Shown piece by piece: positions 1,914 through 27,450 of a stretch of 27,450 bases of DNA. The stretch's first letter is position 1. Each line of letters begins with the position of its first letter. This DNA is from a virus, in the IMG/VR virus record IMGVR_UViG_3300012920_000205, positions 1 to 27,450 of that record, one strand, 5' to 3'. The notes beneath the pieces are model-generated. The model did no database searches. It saw nothing but the letters and a program-made list of their open reading frames with translations, and was not told the DNA's origin. Both the position numbers and the translations under genes were made by a program.

Positions 1914-2090
1914 ATGGACAATGAACTAACTATACAACTGAACCTCAGAATTAATCCCTGCTTGAAGGAGACCTTGGAATCCTTCGCCAAGAAACGGTTG
2001 ACCACCAAGTCGGCTCTCTTGCGTGAAGCTTTGCTAGACCTCTTTGAGAAACATAACGTCGAGTTGGTGCAACCCGAAAAGAGTGAGTGA
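1914..2090 (+). CDS. Ribbon-helix-helix DNA-binding protein
   Basis: This 58-aa protein begins MDNELTIQLNLRINPCLKE. A short beta strand with alternating polar residues (TIQLNLRI) is followed by helix 1 (CLKETLESFAKKR), a turn LTTKS and helix 2 (ALLREALLDLFEKH). That is the MetJ/Arc/CopG ribbon-helix-helix pattern; such proteins bind DNA as dimers with the strand in the major groove. It sits between the iteron/palindrome region and the methyltransferase gene, whose start it overlaps. Likely roles are transcriptional autoregulator or partition-like/origin-binding protein. Confidence 0.75.
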   Translation: MDNELTIQLNLRINPCLKETLESFAKKRLTTKSALLREALLDLFEKHNVELVQPEKSE

Positions 2091-3243
2091 TGTGGATACT
2101 CCCGACGACCTCAACGTTATCAGCGTTTGTACAGGATTGGGGGGTCTCGACATCGGAGCGCATATTGGCTTCGACCGACGAACTCGCCTCAAGTGTATTT
2201 GTGAACGAGAAAGCTATGCGATCTCAATCCTTCAAGCGCGTATGCAACAGGGACGCTTCCCTAGTGCGCCTTGTTGGACAGACCTTGCGACCTTCCCTTT
2301 CCAAGAGTTTCACGGCATACCTAACCTCGCACTATTCGGGGGGTTTCCATGCCAACCCTTCAGCGTATCGGGACTACGCAAAGCCGAAGACGATCCCCGA
2401 CACCTCTTCCCACATATCGCGCGTGGAATCGCGCAATGCGAACCACGGCTCGTGTTGTTGGAGAACGTCGACGGCATCGCTAGTTCCAAGCTCGCAGGCA
2501 AAGAAGAAACAAGTGTTCTCCGATATGTCTTGGAAAGCTTGGAAGGCATGGGTTACATCGCAGAGGCGACTTCGGTCAGCGCGCGAGAAGTTGGAGCAGG
2601 GCACAACCGACGCAGATGGTTCATCCTCGCAGTTTTGGGCGACACCGACGACTGCGGAGGATTACGGATATGCAGGCACGTGGCAGGGCTTTCTAGAACG
2701 GCAAGCCAAGTTCAAGAAGAAGGGAGTGAACCTTCAGAAGAAGTTGGACATTGCAGTACAAGACCCGAAGAACCTTGCAACGACTCATGGCATTTCCCTG
2801 CCCGACCCCACCAAGAACAATTCGCATGGGAGTGCGCTAGAATATTGGCCTACTCCGAGGGCGAACAAAATGGAGGGCTCGACGAACGAGGGCTACGGAG
2901 ATTGTCTCATGGAGAAAGTGATGAACCGCAAGGGAGCGACGAAGAACAAACTCTCGCCCCTGTGGGTAGCGCAACTGATGGGTCTGCCTGCGGATTGGGC
3001 GATACTGCCTCCCTCGTGGGAACAGAGTACCACGGCAAAAAGCTAGACTTTCTAATGAAGTACCGACAACGAGCGTTACGCTTGTTGGGTAATTCGGTTT
3101 GTCCACAACAGGCAACAAGAGCGGTTAGGATTCTTGCTCCGCGCATCGCGCTACGCGCTACAGAACTACTAAGCCCCCGCTGCGGAGATAATTTTTCGAC
3201 CATCGAGGGAATCATCCGACAGTCAACCGACAATCCGCTATGA
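2083..3243 (+). CDS. DNA (cytosine-5) methyltransferase, with frame-displaced target-recognition region
   Basis: This transfers methyl groups from SAM to cytosine C5. Visible motifs, numbered from GTG 2083: motif I VCTGLGGLDIG (about 15-25), motif IV GGFPCQPFS with catalytic Cys90, motif VI ENV (127-129), motif VIII NRRRWFIL (about 175-182), motif X LLGNSVCPQQ near 335. A GTG at 2092 is an alternative start, and both overlap or abut the RHH stop. The frame is open throughout. However, from about 2631 to 3046 the residues expected of the recognition domain (WATPT, WPTPR, LSPLWVAQLMGLPADW) are read in the +1 frame, as described separately. The stop overlaps the next ATG (ATGA), so the nuclease gene is coupled. 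Likely roles are protection from host restriction or part of a modification pair. Confidence 0.8.
   Translation: MSDVDTPDDLNVISVCTGLGGLDIGAHIGFDRRTRLKCICERESYAISILQARMQQGRFPSAPCWTDLATFPFQEFHGIPNLALFGGFPCQPFSVSGLRKAEDDPRHLFPHIARGIAQCEPRLVLLENVDGIASSKLAGKEETSVLRYVLESLEGMGYIAEATSVSAREVGAGHNRRRWFILAVLGDTDDCGGLRICRHVAGLSRTASQVQEEGSEPSEEVGHCSTRPEEPCNDSWHFPARPHQEQFAWECARILAYSEGEQNGGLDERGLRRLSHGESDEPQGSDEEQTLAPVGSATDGSACGLGDTASLVGTEYHGKKLDFLMKYRQRALRLLGNSVCPQQATRAVRILAPRIALRATELLSPRCGDNFSTIEGIIRQSTDNPL
2631..3046 (+). other. Alternative-frame coding segment inside the methyltransferase gene
   Basis: The +1 frame is open from 2087 to the TAG at 3044-3046. From about 2631 it reads like the target-recognition half of phage C5 methyltransferases: QFWATPTTAEDYG, a basic segment, YWPTPRANKMEG and LSPLWVAQLMGLPADW. 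The segment is bounded by T4 (2633-2636) and A5 (3037-3041). One base fewer in the first run and one more in the second would fuse motifs I-VIII, this segment and motif X into one conventional enzyme. It has no convincing start of its own. Explanations are compensating indels, ribosomal frameshifting or sequence error. Confidence 0.55.
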
Positions 3244-4173: not shown

Positions 4174-4388
4174 AAACCTACATCCACGTTAACCAACACG
4201 TAGTTCGCAGAAACTCAAAGACAGGGGAGCGTGAACCTGTTCTCACGTGTAAGACTTATAAGTCAAACACCTACGCGCATGAGGTGAAGATCAATGATCA
4301 CACCAAAGTGATCTACAGTCCCGACAAACCGTTGTCCTGCGGTGCTAAAGTTTGGATTGAAACAACCGAAGAAGTTACCTGTGGGTGA
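4170..4388 (+). CDS. Conserved small phage protein of unknown function
   Basis: This 72-aa protein starts at an ATGA overlap with the resolvase gene. Its beta-rich sequence (MKTYIHVNQHVVRRN at the N-terminus and YSPDKPLSCGAKVWIET near the C-terminus) resembles a small protein that I recall next to phage resolvase or modification genes. No catalytic motif is visible. Its position suggests an accessory role in DNA modification or recombination. Confidence 0.7.
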   Translation: MKTYIHVNQHVVRRNSKTGEREPVLTCKTYKSNTYAHEVKINDHTKVIYSPDKPLSCGAKVWIETTEEVTCG

Positions 4389-5346
4389 TACGCAACTGAC
4401 TCTTTTCCCCGAAGCCACCAACTACGATGTGGTTGACCGCCTAGTTACCTACGACAAAGATCATTGTTGGCAGTACGACATTCGGCTCAAGAATCGCAAA
4501 GCCGATCTCGTGGCATCGGGGCTGACGGAAGCGGAAACGCGCTACATCAAAACATCCGACCTCGATTTCTGCGCAGTTCTGCGCACTGACAAAAAAGTCT
4601 GCCGTGAAATTGTAGACTTTATAGAGAGACACGAGTGGTTGGGCAAAATGCCTATGGCGGTGACGCACAGGTTCACGGCTCGCTACAAGGGAATACTTTG
4701 CGGAGTTGTGGTCATGGCAACACCGAACGCTTTTTCAAATTTGTTGGGTGCGGGCACACGGGATTATGAAAAACTTATAGCGCGCGGTGCGTGCATCAGT
4801 TGGTCTCCTGTCAACACGGCATCGTGGCTGATATCAAAGTCGATTGACTACATGGTAAAGAATACTGACTTCCGAGTATTTACCGCTTACTCCGATCCCG
4901 ATGCCAAGGAGTTGGGTACGATCTACCAAGCGTGCAACTTCTTTTATCTAGGTCAGCACTTCGGAGGCGTGAGACAGTTTCTTGATCCGCAAGACTTGAA
5001 GCGTGGTTGGTTTGGCGAGCATGGTTTCAACGACCGATCGCAGATAGTGCGCTATGCCAAAGAGTTGGGATTGGAGTGGCAGGACGAATGGTACAGGAGA
5101 GTTGGGGCTCGCAACCAATACCGAAAAGTAAATTGGGACGCCATTCCTGCCGACGCTGCGCAACTTTTGAAAGAGCTCCGTGTAGCGCACAAGGATCGTT
5201 GCCAAAAAAGAATTTCAACAAAGAAGCATAAGTACGCATACATCAAGGGGGTTGACAAGCGAGAGACCCGAAGCCTCTTGGCAAAGTTTCGCCTAGCCAA
5301 TCCCGATCTAAACGTATTTGATTATCCAAAGGAACGAGGCAAATGA
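4381..5346 (+). CDS. Mom-like DNA modification protein (GNAT-type fold)
   Basis: This is about 321 aa from GTG 4381, which overlaps the previous stop; the in-frame ATG 4342 is an alternative. The core has HRFTARYKGILCGVVVMATP, then ISWSPVNTASWLISKSIDYM and FTAYSDPDAKELGTIYQACN followed by FFYLGQ. The motif Y(A/S)DP...GTIYQAxxFxYxG is the hallmark I associate with phage Mu Mom and relatives, GNAT-like proteins that hypermodify adenine and protect phage DNA from restriction. A basic C-terminal part (residues about 255-320, KDRCQKRISTKKHKYAYIKG) is probably DNA-binding. With the C5 methyltransferase upstream this suggests layered DNA protection. The chemistry cannot be read from sequence. Confidence 0.65.
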   Translation: MGDTQLTLFPEATNYDVVDRLVTYDKDHCWQYDIRLKNRKADLVASGLTEAETRYIKTSDLDFCAVLRTDKKVCREIVDFIERHEWLGKMPMAVTHRFTARYKGILCGVVVMATPNAFSNLLGAGTRDYEKLIARGACISWSPVNTASWLISKSIDYMVKNTDFRVFTAYSDPDAKELGTIYQACNFFYLGQHFGGVRQFLDPQDLKRGWFGEHGFNDRSQIVRYAKELGLEWQDEWYRRVGARNQYRKVNWDAIPADAAQLLKELRVAHKDRCQKRISTKKHKYAYIKGVDKRETRSLLAKFRLANPDLNVFDYPKERGK

Positions 5347-17499: not shown

Positions 17500-18078
17500 A
17501 TGAACATTTTCTACACTGACCCCGATCCATTAATTTGCGCCCAAAACCTGTGCGACAAACACGTGGTCAAGATGCCTTTAGAAACTGCTCAAATGCTTTC
17601 TACTGCGTGGCGTTACTACGCTGATCCAAACTTAGTAGACACAAAACTTTGGTGCGACCAACGAGGTTTTTATAAAACCGCAATGGTCAACCACCCTAGC
17701 ACCAAGTGGGCACGCACTTCCTGTGCTAACTACAAGTGGCTTTTTAAACATTTTGTAGCCCTGTGCGTAGAATATCAGTACAGATACCGCAAAGTACACA
17801 AGTCTTTTGAGCTTGTTGAGCACCTACAATACATACCGCATCTCCTACGAACTACTTGGGACAACCCGCCTGCTGATTTAACACCGCCACCCCTGTGTAT
17901 GCCCGACAAGTATAAAGGTAAAAGTGCAGTTCTTTCTTATCGTGATTACATATTCGGTGAAAAAAAATCTTTTGCCAAGTGGGACTACCGCCCACCTCCT
18001 GCGTGGTTTATCAAGCGAGTCCGCTCTTACAAACCGAATCCGTATTACAACAGTAAGGCGAACTGCTTACGCTTGTAG
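17500..18078 (+). CDS. Pyrimidine-dimer DNA glycosylase-like protein
   Basis: This 192-aa protein begins MNIFYTDPDPLICAQNLCDK, then HVVKMPLETAQMLSTAWRYY, and has a NHPSTKWARTSCANYKWLF segment and YRYRKVHKS. These are the conserved blocks of a phage and bacterial family related to T4 endonuclease V (Pyr_excise type), which starts repair of UV pyrimidine dimers. The family match is by memory of the motif pattern. It may protect phage DNA in sunlit water. Its 3' end overlaps the convergent methyltransferase gene by 34 bases. Confidence 0.7.
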   Translation: MNIFYTDPDPLICAQNLCDKHVVKMPLETAQMLSTAWRYYADPNLVDTKLWCDQRGFYKTAMVNHPSTKWARTSCANYKWLFKHFVALCVEYQYRYRKVHKSFELVEHLQYIPHLLRTTWDNPPADLTPPPLCMPDKYKGKSAVLSYRDYIFGEKKSFAKWDYRPPPAWFIKRVRSYKPNPYYNSKANCLRL

Positions 18079-18548
18079 ACTTTTAATTCTACCCCATGCT
18101 TTTCTGCAAACTCATCTATAGCGGGTTTAGGCCCTCTTTTGCAGTTTTCGTCAGTCCAACCATAGTCGTCGCCTGTTAAGTAACCGCCCTTTTTAACAAA
18201 GGGGGCTAGGTGCTCTAAATCTTTTTTGACGGCTTCGTAGCTATGATCTCCGTCTAGATATAGCCAATCGAAAAAACCTTCTTTAAAACTAACCTCTGTT
18301 GAGTACGCTCGGTGAATGGTGACTTCTTCTCGGTCTTTAAAATCTTTTTGCACTTGCCGATAGATTGCATCCATTTTCTCTTGGGCAACAGAGTACAATC
18401 GATTTTTGTAGTCTTGATGAACCCACGGGTCGATTAGATGTAGCGCGCTAGGCTTGCGGTTAAGGATGGCTTTCGCAAAAGCGCCTTTCCAAACACCAAC
18501 TTCTGCACAAACAAAACCTTCTTTGATTAAGCTAAGAGGTTTCCTCAT
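18045..18548 (-). CDS. Class I SAM-dependent methyltransferase
   Basis: I chose the ATG at 18546-18548, which overlaps the upstream stop (ATGA); the 217-aa frame from 18698 shadows the previous gene. The 167-aa protein has motif I VCAEVGVWKGAFA, the acidic LHLIDPW after strand 2, and DWLYLDGDHSYEAVKKDLE followed by KKGGYLTGDDYG. That is the Methyltransf_24 family, often sugar or small-molecule O-methyltransferases. As the last gene of an operon with glycosyl- and sulfotransferases, it probably methylates the same glycan; that is an inference. Confidence 0.8.
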   Translation of the reverse strand: MRKPLSLIKEGFVCAEVGVWKGAFAKAILNRKPSALHLIDPWVHQDYKNRLYSVAQEKMDAIYRQVQKDFKDREEVTIHRAYSTEVSFKEGFFDWLYLDGDHSYEAVKKDLEHLAPFVKKGGYLTGDDYGWTDENCKRGPKPAIDEFAEKHGVELKVYKRKQFALLL

Positions 18549-20380
18549 AAAGTGTTTTGTAAAATGTAGCCGATCTCTACATCTTTCAACAACCAAGAAG
18601 CATTGATCTGCGAGATTATGTAAATACGAAGCTTTAACTGCTTGCCCCTCATGTTGACGAACACTTTGACTTCGTCGTCTAAAATCTCGCCCAACCATCT
18701 ACCTGTTTCAAGACCGTCTTCGGTTTGAGCGTAGACTCCTAGATATCCTAAAGAACCTGTTTTGAATTTCAAGAAGACTTCCATGAAGTTTTTCATAGAT
18801 TCGGGAGCTCCCATGTCTTCGTAAGCGGTTTCAATCACGCTCAAGGTTGATTGCGAAAACTTTGTGTAGTCGTTTAAGTTTGCAGGCAGGGCAGTTTCTT
18901 CGGGTCTACTGAAAGCGCCTGCGTAGTTCATTGGGCTGACCGTACCCTCGCCTTCGTAAAAAAGGTTTAACTGATCGGAACTGACGCCTCCTAGTTGAAT
19001 GAACCCTTGGCGCGCTTGGAGAGGCACATTGTTATTGTTCGCAAGAACCTGTACGGATTGCGGTGCATTGGAGTATTTTAAATAAACGTTTGGGCGTTGC
19101 GCTAGGGGAGCGGATGGGAACGGCGAATTGAAAGATGCCGTTTCTCTCAAGTCAGACAAATCAGTGCTCCAAAAGTTCCCGTCTTGGTCGATGCCCAATA
19201 GCGCGCTAGTATCCTCCATTTTGGTCACAGCTTGAAACCTCGGATATAAATTAGGCCCGCTCAGTGCAAAAGTTTCACCGTTGTACAAGAACATGGGATA
19301 TCCTTTTTCAATCCCCGTTGACAGGTGCGGGACGCACGCTCCAAAGAATTCCGCGCTAGGCTCATAGGTTGTGAATGACCCCGTCAAATCCACATCCAAG
19401 TATCTGTTCCAAGCGTTGACGGCTTTCCACGAAATGATTTCGCCCACACGCCCTTCAGTCATGTGATCTTGTCCCGCTCGCGCTGCTTCATCCTTGTATA
19501 TCTGTCCGTCAGTTCCGAAATAGAAAGGACGAACTCCCATGTTTGCACTAGCGCTATTTGGATTCAAAGCACCGCTGAACGTGGGGCTCGCGGTTTGGCG
19601 GACGCGGTAGCCTGTACCCGCTTGATTCTTTTCCGTTCGATACAGTAGCGCAACTCCTTTGTCAGTGTGTACGACCACATAGTTTCTGTATGTTGATAGT
19701 GCCGTGATTCGTGTGGCTTCAGACATGATTATTGAAACGGTACTCAACACTCCACTAAAGATACCTTGGATAGCGTCCTCTACATCGGGATTAGCGATGG
19801 TGGCAGGCTCGGAAACATAGACATCCATCGGGTTATCCTTGTTTCCCGTGGCATAAATAGCTTTGTCAGGCCCGACTACAAAACTAGTGCAGGCGGGAAA
19901 AACCTCAAAGGCCTGGGCATAAAGTTTGTCGGGCTGTTGTTGTAGCGCGCTAAAACCGTAATTCGTCGCTGCGCCGAATCTTTGGTTAGGGTTCACCCCG
20001 TCCCCCAAAAACAGTTCACTCCCGACCTTGCTAATGAACGAGCCGTTTAAGGCGTCCACTGCCACGTCTACGCTTGCGTTGGTTGCGGGTGTTTTTTCAA
20101 CGCTAGTCGTATCGGAAATCCACGACATACCGTTAACTACGTTTGTAGCGGTGTCTTTACTGATTACCACTCTGTGTCCATTATCGTCCAACAATGTTAT
20201 CAAGCCGTTTGTAGGTAGCGTCACGCCTGTGTAAACACGCTTCCACAGGGGAGCGTTCCTCACGCAACCTTTAGGGTACGGCACTGCGTTTTCGCACAGT
20301 GTCAGCGAGCCCCTGTCTTGGTCAGTTTCTTCGGCTTGGTTTTGTATTCCGCTAAAATTTTTAACTCTAAAGTATCTCAT
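18545..20380 (-). CDS. Probable virion structural protein
   Basis: This 611-aa protein begins MRYFRVKNFSGIQNQAEETD, with LCENAVPYPKGCVRNAPLWK following. An NFSGI-type start followed by a listing of ENA/residues and then repeated beta strands (YRNYVVVHTDKGVALLYR, FYFGTDGQIYKDE, LLGIDQDGNFW) is what tail-tip or head-tail stabilisation proteins with a beta-propeller show. Gly/Asn/Ser-rich composition and the length fit. I cannot name the exact protein. SD AGAG precedes the start, which overlaps the glycosyltransferase end by 14 bases. Confidence 0.55.
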   Translation of the reverse strand: MRYFRVKNFSGIQNQAEETDQDRGSLTLCENAVPYPKGCVRNAPLWKRVYTGVTLPTNGLITLLDDNGHRVVISKDTATNVVNGMSWISDTTSVEKTPATNASVDVAVDALNGSFISKVGSELFLGDGVNPNQRFGAATNYGFSALQQQPDKLYAQAFEVFPACTSFVVGPDKAIYATGNKDNPMDVYVSEPATIANPDVEDAIQGIFSGVLSTVSIIMSEATRITALSTYRNYVVVHTDKGVALLYRTEKNQAGTGYRVRQTASPTFSGALNPNSASANMGVRPFYFGTDGQIYKDEAARAGQDHMTEGRVGEIISWKAVNAWNRYLDVDLTGSFTTYEPSAEFFGACVPHLSTGIEKGYPMFLYNGETFALSGPNLYPRFQAVTKMEDTSALLGIDQDGNFWSTDLSDLRETASFNSPFPSAPLAQRPNVYLKYSNAPQSVQVLANNNNVPLQARQGFIQLGGVSSDQLNLFYEGEGTVSPMNYAGAFSRPEETALPANLNDYTKFSQSTLSVIETAYEDMGAPESMKNFMEVFLKFKTGSLGYLGVYAQTEDGLETGRWLGEILDDEVKVFVNMRGKQLKLRIYIISQINASWLLKDVEIGYILQNTL

Positions 20381-21032
20381 TGTAGTTACTCTCTATGTCT
20401 TTGGTTAAGTATTTAAAATTAACATCTACTGATATTGTCGTACTGCAAACCGCGCATAGCGTTTTCCAAGCCCCTTGATCGTCGAACTTATCTTTCGCGC
20501 GCGTCAGCGTCGCGCGCAGCGCGTGCAGTCTAATTATAATATCACAGTACTCGTCAAAACGGTCTGTCCGCGCTACAAACAGTCCTGCACAAGGCCCGTC
20601 ATGCCCCAATATGTTTTTCATTTTTCCCCTAAACCATTTATATCTTGGAAATCCAAAGTTCGATCGTTGAAAAACTATATCGTTTTCTCCAAGTATTTTT
20701 TCACACATACTAGGTTTCGGCGCTTGCCATAAAAAACCGTCGTCGGAGTCTACATATATAAAGTGCTTATGCCCATCTGCTTTAAAACGCGCACACTGCT
20801 CTTTTGCGGAAAGTATTTTTTCAAACCACGACCATTTTGTGCGCCTGTCGCAAACAAAAAGGGGCTCACCATTTCCGATTATTTTTTCTAAAAGAGTTAT
20901 GGGGTAGTTTGTTGTGGTCAGCACAGGCACTTCAAATGGTTCTGAAGGAGCACGCACCTTACCCGAAATAACTGCTCTTTTTAAGTGTCTCTTACAAGCA
21001 GACTTGGTGTTATGATTTACAAGCTTTTCCAT
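20367..21032 (-). CDS. Putative GT-A-type glycosyltransferase
   Basis: This 221-aa protein has FEVPVLTTTNYPITLLEKI at the N-terminus. HKHFIYVDSDDGFLWQAP follows in the middle: hydrophobic strand plus DSDD, like the DxD metal/nucleotide-sugar site of GT-A enzymes. FGFPRYKWFRG and GPCAGLFVARTDRFDEY further resemble acceptor-site loops in sugar transferases. The assignment is structural guesswork from motifs and from the adjacent Stealth and sulfotransferase genes. It overlaps the upstream gene by 16 bases. Confidence 0.5.
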   Translation of the reverse strand: MEKLVNHNTKSACKRHLKRAVISGKVRAPSEPFEVPVLTTTNYPITLLEKIIGNGEPLFVCDRRTKWSWFEKILSAKEQCARFKADGHKHFIYVDSDDGFLWQAPKPSMCEKILGENDIVFQRSNFGFPRYKWFRGKMKNILGHDGPCAGLFVARTDRFDEYCDIIIRLHALRATLTRAKDKFDDQGAWKTLCAVCSTTISVDVNFKYLTKDIESNYNEIL

Positions 21033-21658
21033 AGCGCTAGGTCTTGAGCGTACACTTTGTTTATGACTTCGCGCGCTTCGCTAGTTACCTCTGTTTTAGG
21101 TTTGTTGATCGTTATGTTGGTTGGAGCTAGAACTAGTGAGATATTAACCATCTCTTCTAAATAACTAGTTATAGTTTTGTTCATATCTTCATATTTGAAG
21201 AGCTTTAGATACGGATATAGCTCCCACTTCTTCTCTTTTTTACGCTTTTTTCTAGTCCGTAACCAAAAACACTGCGGTTTGAGGTGAACTTGACTCATGT
21301 AAACATTTTGCAAACCCCTTAACACGAAGTCTTCAAAATCTTCATAGTCCCCTAACACGCGAGTCGCGTCGCGTGCATCTTTTGACGTGTGTCGTTGCCC
21401 ACCATTTTTAAGATACCAATACGCTGAAATTAGTCGCTCGGTCGGCTCTCTTATGACTGCGTGGACGGTGGGATCAGTGTTTAGGTGCATTCGCCCCACT
21501 CTCTCCAACAATGTTTTTTTACTAGCCCCCCTGTGTACGAGAATTTTTACATTCCGTATGTGCCTCTTTAACGCCCTACGAACCGATATCCCTCCTGTTT
21601 TGGGAATGTGTACAAACACCATAGGCTCTGCAAGCGATATGGGGACATGGAAACTCAT
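21017..21658 (-). CDS. Sulfotransferase
   Basis: This 213-aa protein has the PAPS 5'-phosphosulfate loop FVHIPKTGGISVRRAL (about 15-30) and the 3'-phosphate motif VIREPTERLISAYWY (about 67-81), diagnostic of the Sulfotransfer_2 family, whose members often sulfate carbohydrates. It moves sulfate from PAPS to an acceptor, probably the glycan made by the neighbouring transferases. A lysine/arginine run (RTRKKRKKEKKWE) lies near residue 135. The start is at an ATGA overlap with the Stealth-like gene. Confidence 0.85.
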   Translation of the reverse strand: MSFHVPISLAEPMVFVHIPKTGGISVRRALKRHIRNVKILVHRGASKKTLLERVGRMHLNTDPTVHAVIREPTERLISAYWYLKNGGQRHTSKDARDATRVLGDYEDFEDFVLRGLQNVYMSQVHLKPQCFWLRTRKKRKKEKKWELYPYLKLFKYEDMNKTITSYLEEMVNISLVLAPTNITINKPKTEVTSEAREVINKVYAQDLALWKSL

Positions 21659-22386
21659 TGCTCAAATCTTGATTTTTTTGGAAATAGGGACTCTACCGCT
21701 TGTTTCATCTCATCGGAGAAACTGTTGTCGTTAAAATTTAAGTACCGACTTTCAGATAGCCTTTTCTTCATCGACTCGACGGTGGGTTGTTTTCCATAAA
21801 AACCCGCCCGCACTTTGCCGTCATTTATGTGCGCTATTTCGGGCGTGTCCACTGTGTTAAAATACAGTGAAAACACGCAGTAACCGATGTCGTGACCGTA
21901 GTCAAAATTTAAGTATGTCCATAGCTTAGACTTTTCTAGCACATACGGAATGTGTCCTTCGTAGTCTCGTTGAGGATGTCCGTTCTTTTTTAACACCTCC
22001 TTAGTTCGCCAAAGGCGCTGCGCCCATTTGTTGTTGGCGAAGTCCTTCTTTTCCATGTTCTTCATGTCCTTGTTGTAGTACGGCTTTATATCACTGTCCC
22101 ACGTAGGCTGAAGAAAGAAGTGGTCGTCGCTCATCATAATGAACTTTTCAGTCAAAGCAGGCTCATACCCCAATCTAACTATTTTGGCTATTAAGTTAGC
22201 GTCTTTGTTTCGTTTGTACGGGTCGCCTTGCTTGATGTGCGTAATAGCTTTAGTCCAAGGAGGGTTGTGCCCGATAATCCACACTCTTTCCAAATTACGG
22301 TAGTGTGTTTCGAGGGATCGTAAACTATAGCGCAGTTCCCAATCGTTTAGAGTGGACTCGGACGAAACCATATAAACTGCATCCAT
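21655..22386 (-). CDS. Stealth-type sugar-phosphate/glycosyl transferase
   Basis: This 243-aa protein has WELRYSLRSLETHYRNLERV followed by WIIGHNPPW at the N-terminus and KFIMMSDDHFFLQP in the middle. These match conserved regions 1-2 of the Stealth family (hexose-1-phosphate transferases of capsule synthesis and the GlcNAc-phosphotransferase of lysosomal targeting). The acidic DDHF is the probable catalytic/metal site. Its acceptor is likely a glycan or protein decorated by the nearby sulfotransferases. It is translationally coupled to the CxxC gene by TAATG. Confidence 0.75.
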   Translation of the reverse strand: MDAVYMVSSESTLNDWELRYSLRSLETHYRNLERVWIIGHNPPWTKAITHIKQGDPYKRNKDANLIAKIVRLGYEPALTEKFIMMSDDHFFLQPTWDSDIKPYYNKDMKNMEKKDFANNKWAQRLWRTKEVLKKNGHPQRDYEGHIPYVLEKSKLWTYLNFDYGHDIGYCVFSLYFNTVDTPEIAHINDGKVRAGFYGKQPTVESMKKRLSESRYLNFNDNSFSDEMKQAVESLFPKKSRFEQ

Positions 22387-22604
22387 TATAGACCTCTTCT
22401 TATTTTGTTGAGCAACTCCGTTTGCTTACGCTTGTTCTCAGCAACTTGCTCTTCGTGCGTTTGCTTGTGTTGCGCGCTTTTGTAGGGAAACATTTTGTTT
22501 AGTTTCTCCTGTCGCTTTTTACACGCACCACATTGTTTGATACCCATTGCATTGGTGACTTTTTTAATGGTGTCTCCCAACCCTTTGCTTTTATTATCCG
22601 CCAT
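22386..22604 (-). CDS. Small CxxC phage protein
   Basis: This 72-aa protein begins KGLGDTIKKVTNAMGIKQCG and has CGACKKRQEKLNKMFPY then a charged helix. A Cys-x-x-Cys followed by a RQxKLNxMFPY motif recurs in a small phage family I recognise without known function. AGGAGGTAATT directly precedes the ATG, one of the best Shine-Dalgarno sites in the window. It separates the long modular protein from the Stealth gene. Confidence 0.7.
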   Translation of the reverse strand: MADNKSKGLGDTIKKVTNAMGIKQCGACKKRQEKLNKMFPYKSAQHKQTHEEQVAENKRKQTELLNKIRRGL

Positions 22605-22613
22605 AATTACCTC

Positions 22614-24551
22614 CTATGAACAGTATGTTGTTTTAACTCCGCAACTGTTGTCGCACACACAGCTACAAATTACTTGCCAATTGGGCACGTTCTGCTGAAC
22701 ACTCGTTGTTGTTGGCTTTACCCAAATAGTGTCTCCCGCATTTACCGTAAAGCGCGCAGCGTCTTCCGCATTTGCAATTTTACTGTATTCGTTGGCTACG
22801 CCCTGCGAGTAAAGTCCAACCCACTCGTAAAGATACTGACATTCGCTACAACCCGAATCAGTGTACAGTGCTGACGTGCATTGCGCTTCATAACAATCCT
22901 CGCCTGCGGGGCATCCTGCACACGTGGTTACTGCAACAGGATTCCAAGGTTCAACGTTGAAAGAAGTTCCTTGCGTAAGTCGATATTTGGCAAAGCCTCC
23001 GCCTGCGCCTGCTTGTGCCCAAACTTCCGCTCCTGCTTGATAAGTAGTGCCCGAATTGTACATATTCAAACCGCCACCCGAAGAGCCCGTAATAGGTGAG
23101 CACATATTGTCGTAAAACTGATCGCAGTCATGTGTTTGGGGATCGTTTTCTATTATGCAACACCTACAACTTGTGTTTGACGATCCTTGGTACTTACTCC
23201 ATTCACTATAGTAGCCTTCGGGAACTCCTTCGTCCTTTAAAGCATCCGCTTCACAAGCCGTAATAGATGACGGAGAACCTATTTCGTAGCACACCCCGCC
23301 GTTTGTTACTGTGCCATACACGCCGTTGTCAAAAAAGTTGTCCGCCGAAACAAATCCATTGGGATACGGACTCGTAGCTATGTTTCCGTTTGCATCTGTT
23401 TGAGCAGGGAGGTCGGGATCACTACATACGGTTGGAGATGGATAATGCCACCACTCCGTTGAGTCAGAACAGGAGCTAGGACAATCAGAAATTAGTTGTT
23501 CGTTGATCTCATCACTTTGGTTTGTGTAGCGCCCTCTGTTTAATGTAGTGCCGTCAGCGAGCTCTAGTACGCATTTTGATTCAAAAGCAAAACCGTTTGT
23601 TTGCGGAATTTCCGCACAGTCCGTTATTTCCACTCCATTGTAACATTGACCAACAACTTCCGCACAATCGGGGCAACCTTCTCTTTCGCAGGCATGACTG
23701 TAAATGAGGTTGCCGTTCAGTTTAGTAGCGCCTGCTCTTGTAACATCAATAGTTCCTTTGTCAGTTGTAAGTGTACAAATAACGGCATCACTAGCAGTGA
23801 GGTTTTCACAACCGTCAACGGGGTCTACCGAAGTTACGGTGTGTAGCATGGTGGGATCGCACGGAGAAGAATTGCCTTCACAAAAACAGTCGCCTACCTC
23901 ATATTGACAATCGCACGGAAGCGAGCTTGAGGATGAGGAAGCGGATGGAGATGATGGAGATGATGGAGATGATGTGGCTGAAGACGGGGACGAAGTCGAA
24001 CCGCAAGGGGGCGACTGCGCGCTAGAGCACGGTATAGAGACTCCCGCGTTATTGTTGTTAGGGTCGGAAGCGGGGTTTGCGTTTAAAGTTATGCCGTAGC
24101 CGTAATCTGATACGGATTGTACTATATAAATTTCACTGCCGTAACACACTTCATCGCCCGCACTGAAATTGCAAGATTCGCTAGACGATGAAGATGGAGA
24201 GGGGGCTGAAGATGTCGAGGACGGTGAGGGAGAAGAAGACGGGGACGGTGAAGACGAAGGAGAGGGAGAGGGAGAGGGAGAGGGAGAGGGTGAAGGGGAA
24301 GAGGAAGCGGGTGACATCGATGGCGAAGGGGACGGCGAACCCGAAAAAGAAGGTGTGCTAGGGGGCACGGAGCTCCCGCTTGGCTGAGAACCGCCGTCAC
24401 ATTCTTCGCAATCAGCATACTCTGTACCCGATAATTCGCTATAGTTTCCGACATTCGCTGCGGAAATGGCAGTGCCCGCAGTTACTGTAGCGCAATCACC
24501 GTCTACTTTCATAACTGCATTTAAATTAGGGTCTTTTGTTTTGTATGGCAT
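22614..24551 (-). CDS. Ser/Pro-rich, Cys-rich modular protein (possible fibre)
   Basis: This 645-aa protein has GAGGAGG before ATG. After an N-terminal 60 residues comes a linker of SPSP/SSPS repeats (about 60-125). Two small Cys-containing modules follow, CNFSAGDEVCYGSEIYIVQ and CQYEVGDCFCEGNSS, separated by another Ser/Pro linker. A long Cys-rich beta-type region (about 230-645) has more than 30 Cys, many as CxC or CxxC pairs (CRCC, CSCVCDNSC). No signal peptide is seen. The beads-on-linker layout suggests a surface fibre or appendage stabilised by disulfides or metal; the linkers would suit O-glycosylation. Confidence 0.6.
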   Translation of the reverse strand: MPYKTKDPNLNAVMKVDGDCATVTAGTAISAANVGNYSELSGTEYADCEECDGGSQPSGSSVPPSTPSFSGSPSPSPSMSPASSSPSPSPSPSPSPSPSSSPSPSSSPSPSSTSSAPSPSSSSSESCNFSAGDEVCYGSEIYIVQSVSDYGYGITLNANPASDPNNNNAGVSIPCSSAQSPPCGSTSSPSSATSSPSSPSSPSASSSSSSLPCDCQYEVGDCFCEGNSSPCDPTMLHTVTSVDPVDGCENLTASDAVICTLTTDKGTIDVTRAGATKLNGNLIYSHACEREGCPDCAEVVGQCYNGVEITDCAEIPQTNGFAFESKCVLELADGTTLNRGRYTNQSDEINEQLISDCPSSCSDSTEWWHYPSPTVCSDPDLPAQTDANGNIATSPYPNGFVSADNFFDNGVYGTVTNGGVCYEIGSPSSITACEADALKDEGVPEGYYSEWSKYQGSSNTSCRCCIIENDPQTHDCDQFYDNMCSPITGSSGGGLNMYNSGTTYQAGAEVWAQAGAGGGFAKYRLTQGTSFNVEPWNPVAVTTCAGCPAGEDCYEAQCTSALYTDSGCSECQYLYEWVGLYSQGVANEYSKIANAEDAARFTVNAGDTIWVKPTTTSVQQNVPNWQVICSCVCDNSCGVKTTYCS

Positions 24552-24607
24552 TGTTCTTCCTCCTCAATATGATATGCGCCTAGTTTTCTTCTGTCGAGAT
24601 TATTGCG

Positions 24608-25297
24608 CTACGCGCTATAGCTAAAGTTTTCAAAATCTAATTTATTGTAATTGTAAACAATCTCTCTCATCTCAGTAGTATAAACATTCTCCCAAGGTTC
24701 GTGTTTCGTAGCCCCGTGTTTTGGTAAAGGGATGAATCTACTGATTCCAATTTCTCTTAAAATGTGAGCCCACGATTCTTCTAAGTTTTCATAGCGCCCC
24801 ACATAGTCCACCAAAGGGTCTTTCTTGTCATCGAAACGCCAATATAAAAATTTTGTTTGTATGCATCTGTGATGCTCCCACAAGTCTTCTAACTTATCTT
24901 TATCAGTGCCCGTGTATGTACCACGCCCCATACTCAACACAAAGTGCTCAAAATTCTCAAAAGCGTTCCAAGGGTGGTACAAATCAGCGTGAACTGTCGG
25001 GTTAGTATATTGAGGATATTGAGTGTACATCGAGTACAACGACAGGAGCATATCATAAGGATTGCGAACTATTGAAAAAACAAAGCTCTCGTCCCAACGA
25101 CTTTCTCCCAAACTTTTTTTCAAACCTCTCGCCCACGAATGCTTCCACCATTCGCCCGTGTCGGGGTTCTTTTTCGTTAGCTCAAAGTCTATGTTAAATT
25201 TGTCGCACAGAGCCAACTCTATGGAAGTGCCTGCCGTCTTACCAATGTGTACAAACACAAAAGGTTTCGTGAGCCGTGTTTTAGTATTCGTGATCAT
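24608..25297 (-). CDS. Sulfotransferase
   Basis: This 229-aa protein has the PAPS-binding loop FVFVHIGKTAGTSIELAL (about 13-30) and the 3'-phosphate motif FSIVRNPYDMLLSLYSMY (about 73-90), the carbohydrate sulfotransferase signature. It differs substantially from the second sulfotransferase of this operon, so two positions or acceptors may be sulfated. It starts at an ATGA overlap with the propeller gene upstream. Three conserved acidic/aromatic segments later (FLYWRFDD) are usual in the family. Confidence 0.85.
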   Translation of the reverse strand: MITNTKTRLTKPFVFVHIGKTAGTSIELALCDKFNIDFELTKKNPDTGEWWKHSWARGLKKSLGESRWDESFVFSIVRNPYDMLLSLYSMYTQYPQYTNPTVHADLYHPWNAFENFEHFVLSMGRGTYTGTDKDKLEDLWEHHRCIQTKFLYWRFDDKKDPLVDYVGRYENLEESWAHILREIGISRFIPLPKHGATKHEPWENVYTTEMREIVYNYNKLDFENFSYSA

Positions 25298-26298
25298 ATT
25301 GCTTGCAAGTTTTTAATTAAATCTGTTTTAGGTATGCAGTAACACGAACTGTGTGAGTCGCCCTCGCCCGCTGTCACTAAAATGTTGTCTTCGGTTTCTA
25401 GCGCACCCGAAAAGTACACGACTCCATCGTGCCTGCCCTCGGCTGACCCTCCACCCGTTATCGGTTTTGGGGTAAACGCCACGGGTTCGTGACCGTACTT
25501 TGAAAACAATAGCGCGTGTTGATAGTAAACTCTGTTGCGTGACTTGCCTAGAGGTGTGCAAAACTGATGGACGAACATCAAGTACACTTCGCCATACCCG
25601 TCCAAGTTAACTAGAATTGGGTTTGTGGAGTTTGCTACAAACTTGTGGTTTCTCCTAGGCAATCCTTTAAAAGTTTCTTTTTTGTTCAGAACTTTACCCA
25701 AAGCATCGCAGTGCAGTACGACAAACGGTTCGATGGAGTAAACGCAAAACAACTCGTCTTCTTCGCTAAAAAAGCACCAATTCTTTTCTTCCCTACCCAT
25801 CTCAAGGTGGTCACTAGCGTCCATCTCCCGTATATACGAAATTCTACCTTCCTCTAAAGTTCCTAGCGCGGTTCGACTCCTAGCTATTTTCTGAGGCCAT
25901 CCGTTATTAAAATAAAAGTAGTTCGTAAAATTTACATAGGTTTTCTGTCTGTGCCGAAATATTCGCCAATCTTCGGGACGACACGCCATAGGCATACCCG
26001 ACTCTATTGGATGTGGTTCGCTATGCAGGCTAATTGAATCGTTGTTCACGAAACCCGTCGCAATCATGGGGACTGCTTTTTCTTCTAAAAAATGCCCCTT
26101 CCAAGTGTTGTTGGTAGGTTCTGCCCTAAATATTAGTGTAGCTTCGTTGCCTGTAGCGCAGACGGACGGGTTAAAAATACCCTCTTCGCTGTGCGGGACT
26201 GCTCCCGCTTTTATCAAAGGGCGTTTGGATATGTTGGCGGTACTACACAAGTCCAACCGTTCTTTGTTTAGTTCTGTTACTAGCTCTGCTTGTTCCAT
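25294..26298 (-). CDS. Glycosidase/phosphorylase-like beta-propeller protein
   Basis: This 334-aa protein shows the repeated blade pattern of five-bladed GH43/GH130-type propellers: GIFNPSVCATGNEATLIFRA near the N-terminus, MACRPEDWRIFRHR, MGREEKNWCFFSEEDELFC, VYSIEPF and GGGSAEGRHDGVVYFSGALE. The FNPSV, RPEDWRIF and EKNWxxF...YSIEP motifs resemble GH130-like mannoside phosphorylases and related transferases. It could trim, transfer or bind sugar on the modular fibre or host surface. A TAATG overlap couples it to the upstream modular protein. Confidence 0.6.
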   Translation of the reverse strand: MEQAELVTELNKERLDLCSTANISKRPLIKAGAVPHSEEGIFNPSVCATGNEATLIFRAEPTNNTWKGHFLEEKAVPMIATGFVNNDSISLHSEPHPIESGMPMACRPEDWRIFRHRQKTYVNFTNYFYFNNGWPQKIARSRTALGTLEEGRISYIREMDASDHLEMGREEKNWCFFSEEDELFCVYSIEPFVVLHCDALGKVLNKKETFKGLPRRNHKFVANSTNPILVNLDGYGEVYLMFVHQFCTPLGKSRNRVYYQHALLFSKYGHEPVAFTPKPITGGGSAEGRHDGVVYFSGALETEDNILVTAGEGDSHSSCYCIPKTDLIKNLQAI

Positions 26299-27450
26299 TA
26301 GTATAAACCACTACTCGACGGAGATGATGAATAAGAGGGGGTCGAGGGCGAAGATGGGGAGGAGTGTGAGGGTGCGCTACTGCTAGGCGAAGGGCTCGGC
26401 GAAGGGGACGGCGAAGGGCTAGAACTCGGCGAACTTACGGATGCACATGGGTCTACCGTTACCGTATACCAAATTTCAGATGAGCTTGAACTGCTACTAG
26501 GCGAGGGGCTAGGACTTGGACTAGGACTTGGGCTAGGTGAAGGACTTGGACTTGGGCTAGGGCTAGGGCTAGGTGAAGGACTAGGCGAGGGACTCGGTGA
26601 AGGACTAGAACTTGGCGAACTTACGGATGCACATGGGTCTACCGTTACCGTATACCAAATTTCACTAGAAGAACTCGGCGAACTTGGGGAACTTGAACTC
26701 GGCGAACTTGAACTCGGCGAACTTGGGGAACTTGAACTCGGCGAACTTGGGGAACTAGAGCTCGGCGAACTTGCGCTAGAACTTGGTGAACTAGAACTTG
26801 GGGAACTAGGTGAACTAGGTGAACTAGGTGAACTAGGTGAACTAGGTGAACTTGGGGAACTAGGTGAACTAGAACTTGGAGAACTTGCGCTAGAACTTGG
26901 TGAACTAGAACTTGGAGAACTTGGAGAGCTAGAACTTGGAGAACTTGGAGAACTTGGAGAACTTGGAGAACTTGGAGAACTAGAACTTGAGCTAGAACTT
27001 GGTGAACTTGGGCAGTTATCGTAATCGCCACAATTAACAGTTATAACTTCAGCACCTCCCCCGTATTCAAGCTCTACTTGATTCCCCGTCACAGACAAAA
27101 CTGTGTATGTTTTACATATACCTTCGGCTTCGTCGTAGCGCTCATACACATCACCCACTTGTGCGTCACAAGAACTAGAACTAGAGCTAGAACTTGGTGA
27201 GCTAGGAGAACTAGAACTTGGTGAGGAGGGGCTAGGCGGTGAGCTTGAAGAACTAGGGCAACTGCAACACTTGCAACAATGGCACGGATCGGGGCAATCA
27301 AAATCGTGAGTGTGGGGGTGAGAATGATCGTCGTCGTGATCGTGGTCGTGGTCGTGATCGTGAGAATGGTCGGGGAGAGAGTGCGAGTGGGGGTGTGAGT
27401 GAGGGTGTGAGTGAGGGTGTGAGTGAGGGTGTGAGTGAGGGTGTGAGTGA
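26298..27450 (-). CDS. His-rich, Cys-cluster, Ser/Pro-linker modular protein, N-terminus beyond the window
   Basis: The frame is open from the right edge to the stop at 26298-26300, giving at least 383 residues. It does not need to start at the GTG at 27156-27158. The visible order is: a His-rich stretch (27306-27449, HPHS repeats then DHDHDHDHDDD; 22 His in 48 residues), CPDPCHCCKCCSC (27258-27296, 7 Cys in 13), a Ser/Pro linker, a module CDAQVGDVYERYDEAEGICK with YTVLSV, a long SSP-repeat linker, and two copies of an EIWYTVTVDPCASV module. The HxH arrays can bind Fe, Zn or Ni; iron-binding HxH motifs are known at phage fibre and spike tips. Confidence 0.75.
   Translation of the reverse strand, partial: HSHPHSHPHSHPHSHPHSHPHSHSLPDHSHDHDHDHDHDDDHSHPHTHDFDCPDPCHCCKCCSCPSSSSSPPSPSSPSSSSPSSPSSSSSSSSCDAQVGDVYERYDEAEGICKTYTVLSVTGNQVELEYGGGAEVITVNCGDYDNCPSSPSSSSSSSSPSSPSSPSSPSSPSSSSPSSPSSSSPSSSASSPSSSSPSSPSSPSSPSSPSSPSSPSSPSSSSPSSSASSPSSSSPSSPSSSSPSSPSSSSPSSSSPSSPSSSSEIWYTVTVDPCASVSSPSSSPSPSPSPSPSPSPSPSPSPSPSPSPSPSPSPSPSPSSSSSSSEIWYTVTVDPCASVSSPSSSPSPSPSPSPSPSSSAPSHSSPSSPSTPSYSSSPSSSGLY
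26428..26664 (-). repeat. 51-bp perfect direct repeat inside the modular protein gene
   Basis: Bases 26428-26478 and 26614-26664 appear identical over 51 bp, 186 bp apart. They encode the two EIWYTVTVDPCASV modules. Identity at DNA level, including third codon positions, indicates recent duplication or recombinational homogenisation. Confidence 0.85.
26670..27006 (-). repeat. Degenerate short tandem repeat coding SSP linker
   Basis: Units of 9 bp (such as GAACTTGGA, GAACTAGGT and GAACTCGGC on the plus strand) repeat in higher-order blocks of about 18-120 bp. On the minus strand they encode Ser-Ser-Pro. Long identical blocks suggest replication slippage or unequal recombination; the linker length may vary between relatives. 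Confidence 0.8.
27391..27450 (-). repeat. Five perfect copies of a 12-bp tandem repeat
   Basis: The unit GGGTGTGAGTGA is repeated exactly at 27391, 27403, 27415, 27427 and 27439 and runs off the right edge. On the minus strand it encodes the four-residue repeat HSHP. The full array length is not visible. Confidence 0.95.

Follow-up and report, generated by a model that had tools for sequence, protein, structure and literature searches.

A candidate cassette for glycosylation and sulfation of Ser-rich fibre-like proteins in the late operon of a phage

We analysed the IMG/VR virus record IMGVR_UViG_3300012920_000205, a genomic fragment whose entire 27,450 bases are referred to as the window, and focused on ten minus-strand genes in its right 9.4 kb (18045-27450, Table 1). 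These genes encode two Ser/Pro-linked proteins (SP1 and SP2), a GH130-like propeller protein, two predicted sulfotransferases (ST1 and ST2), a conserved protein of 72 amino acids (aa), a Stealth-like protein, a putative glycosyltransferase (GT)-like protein, a virion-type protein, and a methyltransferase (MT). The best explanation, to which we give an even chance, is that they form an exchangeable late-operon cassette that would O-glycosylate and sulfate the phage's own Ser-rich fibre-like proteins. We favour decoration of the phage's own fibres because of the position of the genes, their recurrence together with Ser-repeat proteins, the lack of membrane transferases, and their exchangeability. 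A sulfated-glycan fibre pathway had already been suggested in an initial annotation of this DNA; synteny, late-operon position, and soluble enzymes now support it in part, except for the proposed GT-A component, which could not be confirmed.

The search for conserved synteny in relatives that the initial annotation had proposed gave a positive result. Scans with the GH130-like protein uncovered two more phage backgrounds (L138-L140 and L121/L122), three in total. In the tape-measure phage represented by L138-L140, a Cys-rich protein with GSG repeats is encoded after the distal tail genes and the GH130-like gene lies downstream, with an esterase-like gene (L138), a 73-aa gene (L139), or nothing (L140) in between. 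A gene of the 72-aa type, a sulfotransferase gene, and a GT34 gene come after the GH130-like gene in L138 and L139, and a Methyltransf_24 gene is located upstream in the same operon of this background. In L121/L122, the GH130-like gene directly follows the gene of a protein that ends in QGSGP repeats. Thus, the GH130-like gene is paired with a Ser-repeat gene in three phage backgrounds, in two of which a sulfotransferase and a glycosyltransferase stand alongside. A Ser-repeat protein was encoded at most two genes upstream of the GH130-like gene in seven of seven phage loci, against a background of 14 in 1889 open reading frames (ORFs) that is indicative only, as the simple repeat rule used for counting was devised after the repeats had been seen. 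Around the cellular GH130-like homologues, 0 of 200 ORFs were of the Ser-repeat type. The seven phage loci belong to three backgrounds on fragmentary contigs and therefore represent three events at most, yet the pairing itself is evident. Scans with the tail protein of the L138-type phage found relatives only in L138-L140.

That parts of the cassette are exchanged can be seen from two contigs, G001 and L002, which share 94% DNA identity across the Stealth-like gene, the virion gene, and the replication genes. Between the stop codon of the Stealth-like gene and the start of the virion gene, these contigs carry unrelated blocks, a Nucleotid_trans gene and a sulfotransferase gene in G001 versus a sulfotransferase gene and a GT-like gene in L002, and a second differing block after the virion gene contains MT in L002 and other genes in G001. 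The breakpoints of the exchange fall at gene boundaries. When G001 was compared with the window, identity was 66-86% in the backbone, 79% for the Stealth-like protein, 57% for the GH130-like protein, 32% for the C-terminal part of SP2, and 21-32% for the sulfotransferases. Change is fast in the candidate acceptors and in the transferases.

G001 also reveals the genomic position of the cassette. This contig of 67.8 kb is nearly circular, with terminal sequences that share some 134 bases within SP2, and its genes are arranged on one strand in the order terminase, 688-aa protein, 3763-aa protein, SU10-type portal, scaffold-like protein, major capsid protein (Phage_capsid_3, phrog_334), adaptor/tail protein, 2217-aa repeat protein, SP1, GH130-like protein, Sulfotransfer_3 sulfotransferase, SP2, 72-aa protein, Stealth-like protein, transferase, Sulfotransfer_2 protein, and virion protein. 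According to this gene order, the cassette forms part of a late structural operon in a phage with an SU10-type portal. The 3763-aa protein between the portal and the 688-aa gene (19746-31037, minus strand, in G001) was also noted in L037/L038. The virion-type protein has relatives on 32 contigs and comes after the capsid, adaptor, and fibre genes, also in copies borne by Verrucomicrobiota. In about 30 remoter relatives, the order of capsid, adaptor, and virion genes is kept and the interval is filled by other fibre-like proteins, some of which have (ES)n or (DP)n linkers, and such low-complexity linkers were seen in fibre-slot proteins of L020 (10001-12694) and L007 (8770-9861). One Verrucomicrobiota-borne relative (L156, 5200-8814) has GCTDPxAxNYDPxATxDDGSC repeats in its fibre-slot protein. 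Sulfotransferases occur at other late-operon positions of the family in L005, L006, L015, L029, and L042, namely after the virion gene in L005 and L006 and, together with a transferase-like gene, upstream of scaffold and capsid in L029 and L042.

Judged from sequence, the host is probably a member of the Verrucomicrobiota. The capsid profile matched 4 of 388 Verrucomicrobiota genomes (two of them at 6e-109 and 2e-85), 1 of 392 Planctomycetota genomes, and none of 345 Bacteroidota or 398 Pseudomonadota genomes (Fisher p ~0.015). Copies of the phage family are present in bacterial chromosomes, and a tyrosine recombinase-like protein belongs to its gene products; the virion gene of the L154 copy is followed by ordinary bacterial genes within a contig of 633 kb, and in this prophage the virion gene directly follows the adaptor gene without any insertion. 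A search of 50,697 records of isolate phages with the virion protein, the GH130-like protein, and SP2 gave no relatives for any of the three. Outside the cassette, the window encodes a protein with a Pfam Mom match (4342-5346, plus strand, E 1.1e-11) and a C5 cytosine methylase (2044-3243), and these two genes may point to an unusual set of DNA modifications in this phage.

The leftward and nearly gap-free operon of the initial annotation was recovered with all of its genes; the 72-aa gene (phrog_32048) had not been mentioned, and the start of MT is most likely not the annotated 18698. We favour 18548 for MT, as this start gives an ATGA overlap with the virion gene and a 167-aa relative is present in L002. 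Start/stop coupling, which had likewise been claimed, exists at five junctions, as TAATG between SP1 and the GH130-like gene and between the 72-aa and Stealth-like genes, and as ATGA at the GH130-like/ST1, Stealth/ST2, and virion/MT junctions. Longer overlaps flank the GT-like gene, with 16 nucleotides (nt) shared with ST2 and 14 nt with the virion gene. The sole real gap is the 56-nt spacing from ST1 to SP2, where a perfect AGGAGG site precedes SP2, and the 72-aa gene follows SP2 at a distance of 9 nt, with a strong AGGAGG of its own. Ribosome-binding sites are strong for SP2 and the 72-aa gene and weak for most enzyme genes; most enzyme genes depend on translational coupling. Scans for promoters and terminators gave no more sites than in shuffled sequence, and an Rfam search gave no match.

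Table 1. Genes of the candidate cassette in the window.
Feature	Position	Strand	Basis or remark
SP1, Ser/Pro-linked protein	26298..27449	-	383 C-terminal aa; truncated at the 5' end by the contig border
GH130/GT108-fold five-bladed propeller, predicted enzyme, 334 aa	25294..26298	-	model and structure matches
ST1, predicted Sulfotransfer_2 protein, 229 aa	24608..25297	-	Pfam PF03567 and PAPS motifs
SP2, 645 aa, 41 Cys	22614..24551	-	Ser/Pro linkers and Cys-rich modules; AGGAGG
72-aa conserved phage protein	22386..22604	-	phrog_32048; strong AGGAGG
Stealth-like putative hexose-1-phosphoryl transferase, 243 aa	21655..22386	-	Stealth_CR2, phrog_7999
ST2, predicted Sulfotransfer_2 protein, 213 aa	21017..21658	-	Pfam PF03567 and PAPS motifs
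Putative GT-A-like transferase, 221 aa, unconfirmed	20367..21032	-	motifs only
Virion-type protein, 611 aa	18545..20380	-	conserved in family, late-operon end
SAM methyltransferase (MT), Methyltransf_24, 167 aa	18045..18548	-	Pfam PF13578

SP1 and SP2 match their initial description as Ser/Pro-linked and Cys-rich in composition and linkers, SP1 being incomplete at the contig end. SP1 comprises His-rich repeats, a Cys cluster, a Cys module of about 55 aa, and two 'SSEIWYTVTVDPCASV' motifs, with (SSP)n and (SP)n linkers in between, and its relative in G001 has 857 aa and is encoded downstream of the tail genes. The His-rich repeats (HSHPHSHP..., GDHSHSGGDHSH) next to Cys clusters (window 27307-27449, minus strand; also L037 1982-4555) may bind metal. 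In SP2, the Ser/Pro linkers span residues 68-123 and 190-208, and searches with the SP2 modules found relatives only in G001. The linker serines are encoded by all six Ser codons in SP1 and by four in SP2, and the prolines by all four Pro codons, indicating that the linkers are maintained as protein sequence and not via slippage of one DNA repeat. Contigs break in or near Ser-repeat genes at the right end of the window, at both ends of G001, and at the left end of L002, and such genes are probably often missed or under-represented in short-read assemblies. The 72-aa protein has a near-invariant core, KGLGDTIKKVTNAxGIKQCGxCKKRQxKLN (window 22386-22604, minus strand; L042-L119). Its phrog_32048 relatives are encoded in over 570 phage loci, frequently close to late structural genes, and only few of the loci fetched contain a sulfotransferase; we therefore rejected this gene as a marker of glycan cassettes.

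Both ST1 (E 1.9e-13, 51.5 bits) and ST2 (E 4.8e-6, 27.3 bits) exceed the Sulfotransfer_2 cut-off of 22 bits (PF03567), and both have motifs for binding 3'-phosphoadenosine 5'-phosphosulfate (PAPS), namely 'HIGKTAGT' and 'HIPKTGG' at the 5'-phosphosulfate-binding site (5'-PSB, found by reading the sequence) and 'IVRNPYDMLLS' and 'VIREPTERLIS' at the 3'-phosphate-binding site (3'-PB, found by pattern) of ST1 and ST2, respectively. Profile and motifs identify them as two distinct predicted PAPS sulfotransferases, as initially annotated. A sequence search of the PDB with ST1 gave no match. The annotation of MT as S-adenosylmethionine (SAM) methyltransferase was also confirmed, since it matches Methyltransf_24 (PF13578) at E 3.8e-15 with 57.1 bits (cut-off 26.3).

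The Stealth assignment holds in part. Stealth transferases are defined by four conserved regions (CR), of which CR1 contains IDVVYTF or similar, CR2 has about 100 residues, CR3 includes an essential Arg, and CR4 contains CLND or CIND (PMC10668966). Like CpsY and GNPTAB, the phage protein has a CR1-like motif (MDAVYMV at the N-terminus, recognized by eye). It also shows a sub-cut-off CR2 profile match (E 8.4e-7) and a partly CR4-like ND...FP..S.FE end (NFND...FPKKSRFE), and it matches phrog_7999 at E 6e-25. Unlike these enzymes, it has just 243 aa and short spacers, the CR2 score of 29.6 bits is under the curated cut-off of 39.4, no CR3 profile match was found, and NFND replaces CLND/CIND, so that ND is retained and CL is not. 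Related Stealth-like genes annotated as hypothetical exist in the mycobacteriophages Eponine (gp6, L145 1279-1965, just before the terminase) and Gaia (gp170, L146 5884-7235, adjoining a methyltransferase gene, with a tail protein gene in the vicinity). The label 'GT-A-like' for the gene at 20367-21032 was not substantiated: the protein has the motifs YVDSDDGFLW and DDQG, Pfam and PHROG searches gave no match and the PDB none that was meaningful, and a structure model from a two-sequence alignment was unusable, with a predicted local distance difference test (pLDDT) of 38. The equivalent slot of G001 is occupied by a Pfam Nucleotid_trans protein.

For the GH130-like protein, the propeller initially proposed is borne out by the predicted structure. 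An AlphaFold2 model from four phage sequences (pLDDT 76.8) had GH130 mannoside phosphorylases as its top structure matches, with a Z of 25.3 and a root-mean-square deviation of 3.2 A over 288 residues for 5ay9 (VIA-align), followed at Z 18-19 by the Leishmania GT108 mannosyltransferases (18.8 for MPT-2) and other propeller families. Foldseek gave 4e-10 for the model, and the sequence profile matched 7fip at E 0.005. We count the GH130/GT108 fold, as modelled, among the established points. In Pfam, Glyco_hydro_130 did not match the window protein and scored 14.1 bits with the G001 relative (cut-off 26), which is why we use the name GH130-like and not GH130. A PEDWR motif is conserved across the aligned phage proteins; it resembles the xDPR catalytic motif and is a predicted catalytic site that would include the catalytic Asp. 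GT108 enzymes have the GH130 fold and possess transferase and phosphorylase activity (PMC8950772). The phage protein resembles GH130 and GT108 enzymes in its five-bladed propeller fold, and it differs from them in its low identity (12-20%), its sub-cut-off Pfam score, and its biosynthetic rather than catabolic gene neighbours.

Cellular relatives, mostly 22-26% identical, occur in Planctomycetota, Verrucomicrobiota, Flavobacteriaceae, Roseobacteraceae, and others. In most cellular loci with long flanks, the GH130-like gene lies in a surface-polysaccharide locus and adjoins genes for GT34-like/Nucleotid_trans proteins and polysaccharide pyruvyl transferases, and in two loci Sulfotransfer_2 genes are nearby. 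This neighbourhood makes a biosynthetic role likelier than a degradative one, and the family is probably biosynthetic. A catabolic GH130 function in the breakdown of host mannan was set aside, as the neighbours are biosynthetic in all phage and most cellular loci. The cassette resembles the surface-polysaccharide loci of Flavobacteriaceae, Roseobacteraceae, and Phycisphaerae in combining the GH130-like gene with a GT34-type gene, in some of them also with Sulfotransfer_2, whereas the bacterial loci are chromosomal, contain PS_pyruv_trans, and lack nearby Ser-repeat proteins. In a tree, the phage proteins cluster (87/92) on long branches, and their nearest neighbours are Planctomycetaceae and Verrucomicrobiales sequences. 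A Planctomycetaceae protein of 598 aa (L124 2-1798, plus strand) is a fusion of Methyltransf_24 with a GH130-like domain.

If the cassette decorates the phage's own fibres, SP1 and SP2 would be modular fibre- or appendage-like proteins with small Cys-rich modules on Ser/Pro linkers, whose serines in (SP)n, (SSP)n, or (GSG)n would be the natural acceptors. The enzymes, soluble according to hydropathy, fit a modification of phage proteins in the cytoplasm before assembly and would act there during late infection. The Stealth-like or the GT-like transferase would start or extend the glycan on the linker serines. Stealth enzymes transfer sugar-1-phosphate, and the Stealth-like enzyme could hence yield phosphodiester-linked sugars on Ser. 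The GH130/GT108-type enzyme would add or edit beta-linked, perhaps mannosyl, sugars, ST1 and ST2 would add sulfate from PAPS supplied by the host, and MT would cap the glycan, before the finished anionic glycoprotein is assembled onto the particle. When near-identical phages exchange the transferase pair, their surface chemistry would change, as is to be expected of a trait selected via receptors or immunity. We infer the acceptor, the order of steps, the identity of the sugars, and the presence in the virion. The detailed picture of proteoglycan-like Ser-Pro/Ser-Gly fibres that are sulfated, possibly phosphodiester-linked and methylated, and built by a Stealth/GH130-GT108/GT set plus sulfotransferases with swapped enzyme pairs is offered tentatively, as a possible version.

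The main rival explanation is that the enzymes modify the surface polysaccharide of the host in late infection or lysogeny and mask receptors, leading to superinfection exclusion or seroconversion, with SP1 and SP2 as unmodified neighbouring fibres. We regard this as rather unlikely. It would suit a temperate family and the fact that the Verrucomicrobiota include species, Pontiella among them, that produce sulfated glycosaminoglycan-like exopolymers (PMC7356697), and the exchange of transferases is compatible with receptor masking, too. The genes are, however, interleaved with structural genes of the late operon and not part of a lysogeny module, the pairing with Ser-repeat proteins recurs in unrelated phages and is absent around cellular homologues, and a membrane flippase or membrane transferases of the Gtr kind (GtrA/B/C) were not detected by hydropathy among the cassette enzymes, none of which has a 19-residue window at transmembrane level (best 1.40). 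Some observations do weigh against decoration of the phage's own fibres. The location of the cellular GH130-like homologues in surface-polysaccharide loci, some with sulfotransferases, fits host-surface modification equally well, and several sister phages encode a sulfotransferase in the late operon but no Ser-repeat proteins. Moreover, SP1 and SP2 are candidate virion proteins only, L121/L122 pair the GH130-like gene with a Ser-repeat gene without a sulfotransferase or GT nearby, no dedicated enzyme for initiating O-glycans on Ser can be named with certainty among the cassette genes, and the phage backgrounds number just three, on fragmentary contigs.

It is also conceivable, if quite unlikely in our view, that the target of the enzymes is the capsid or some other protein of the virion, as is the case in Che8-type mycobacteriophages, and that the Ser/Pro runs are flexible spacers only. 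In agreement with this, low-complexity spacers are general in these fibre genes, since (ES)n or (DP)n linkers occur in relatives without the cassette, and the sulfotransferase and transferase-like genes of L029/L042 lie upstream of the capsid gene; yet the repeats that precede the GH130-like gene are of the Ser-rich kind, (SP)n, (GSG)n, or (QGSGP)n, in every phage locus found. A collection of unrelated metabolic or moron genes, gathered at a permissive site that separates the tail genes from the virion gene and sharing no pathway, would account for the variability of this site across the family and for the L154 prophage, in which the spot is empty. We consider it very improbable, as the same gene set recurs in the same order in a different phage, the genes are coupled by start/stop overlaps, and they are exchanged as a block.

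Phage particles are usually regarded as bare protein. If our explanation is correct, some phages bear sulfated anionic glycans on fibre-like proteins, with a chemistry that can be swapped via two genes, and sulfated virion glycoproteins exist in bacterial viruses. This would be relevant for adsorption to hosts with sulfated exopolymers, such as some Verrucomicrobiota, and for grazing on and recognition of particles, and phages would offer native sets of acceptors plus enzymes for sulfated glycoproteins. A search rule also emerges, namely GH130-like, phrog_32048-type, sulfotransferase, and GT genes downstream of a Ser-repeat Cys-rich gene. Phage sulfotransferases have been annotated before, for example in Synechococcus phages. 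Our literature search, which covered a limited collection, found no paper on sulfated phage virions, and within this collection the combination of Ser-repeat Cys-rich acceptors and enzymes in an exchangeable late cassette is undescribed.

Among known systems, eukaryotic proteoglycans and proteophosphoglycans are comparable in that Ser-Gly or Ser-Pro linkers serve as acceptors, an analogy that implies no homology of the acceptors. Sulfated or phosphoglycosylated Ser-rich proteins of eukaryotes are made with sulfotransferases and, in some cases, a Stealth-type enzyme. In phages, virion glycosylation by phage-encoded enzymes is established for the mycobacteriophages Che8 and Rita (Freeman et al. 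2023, as cited in PMC11256854). As far as this secondary account goes, the likeness lies in phage glycosyltransferases whose presumed target is the particle of the phage itself. The acceptor it gives is the capsid protein, and it describes no sulfotransferase and no Ser-repeat Cys-rich acceptor, whereas in the window the gene set is located next to fibre-like genes, with sulfotransferases and a GH130-like protein among its products.

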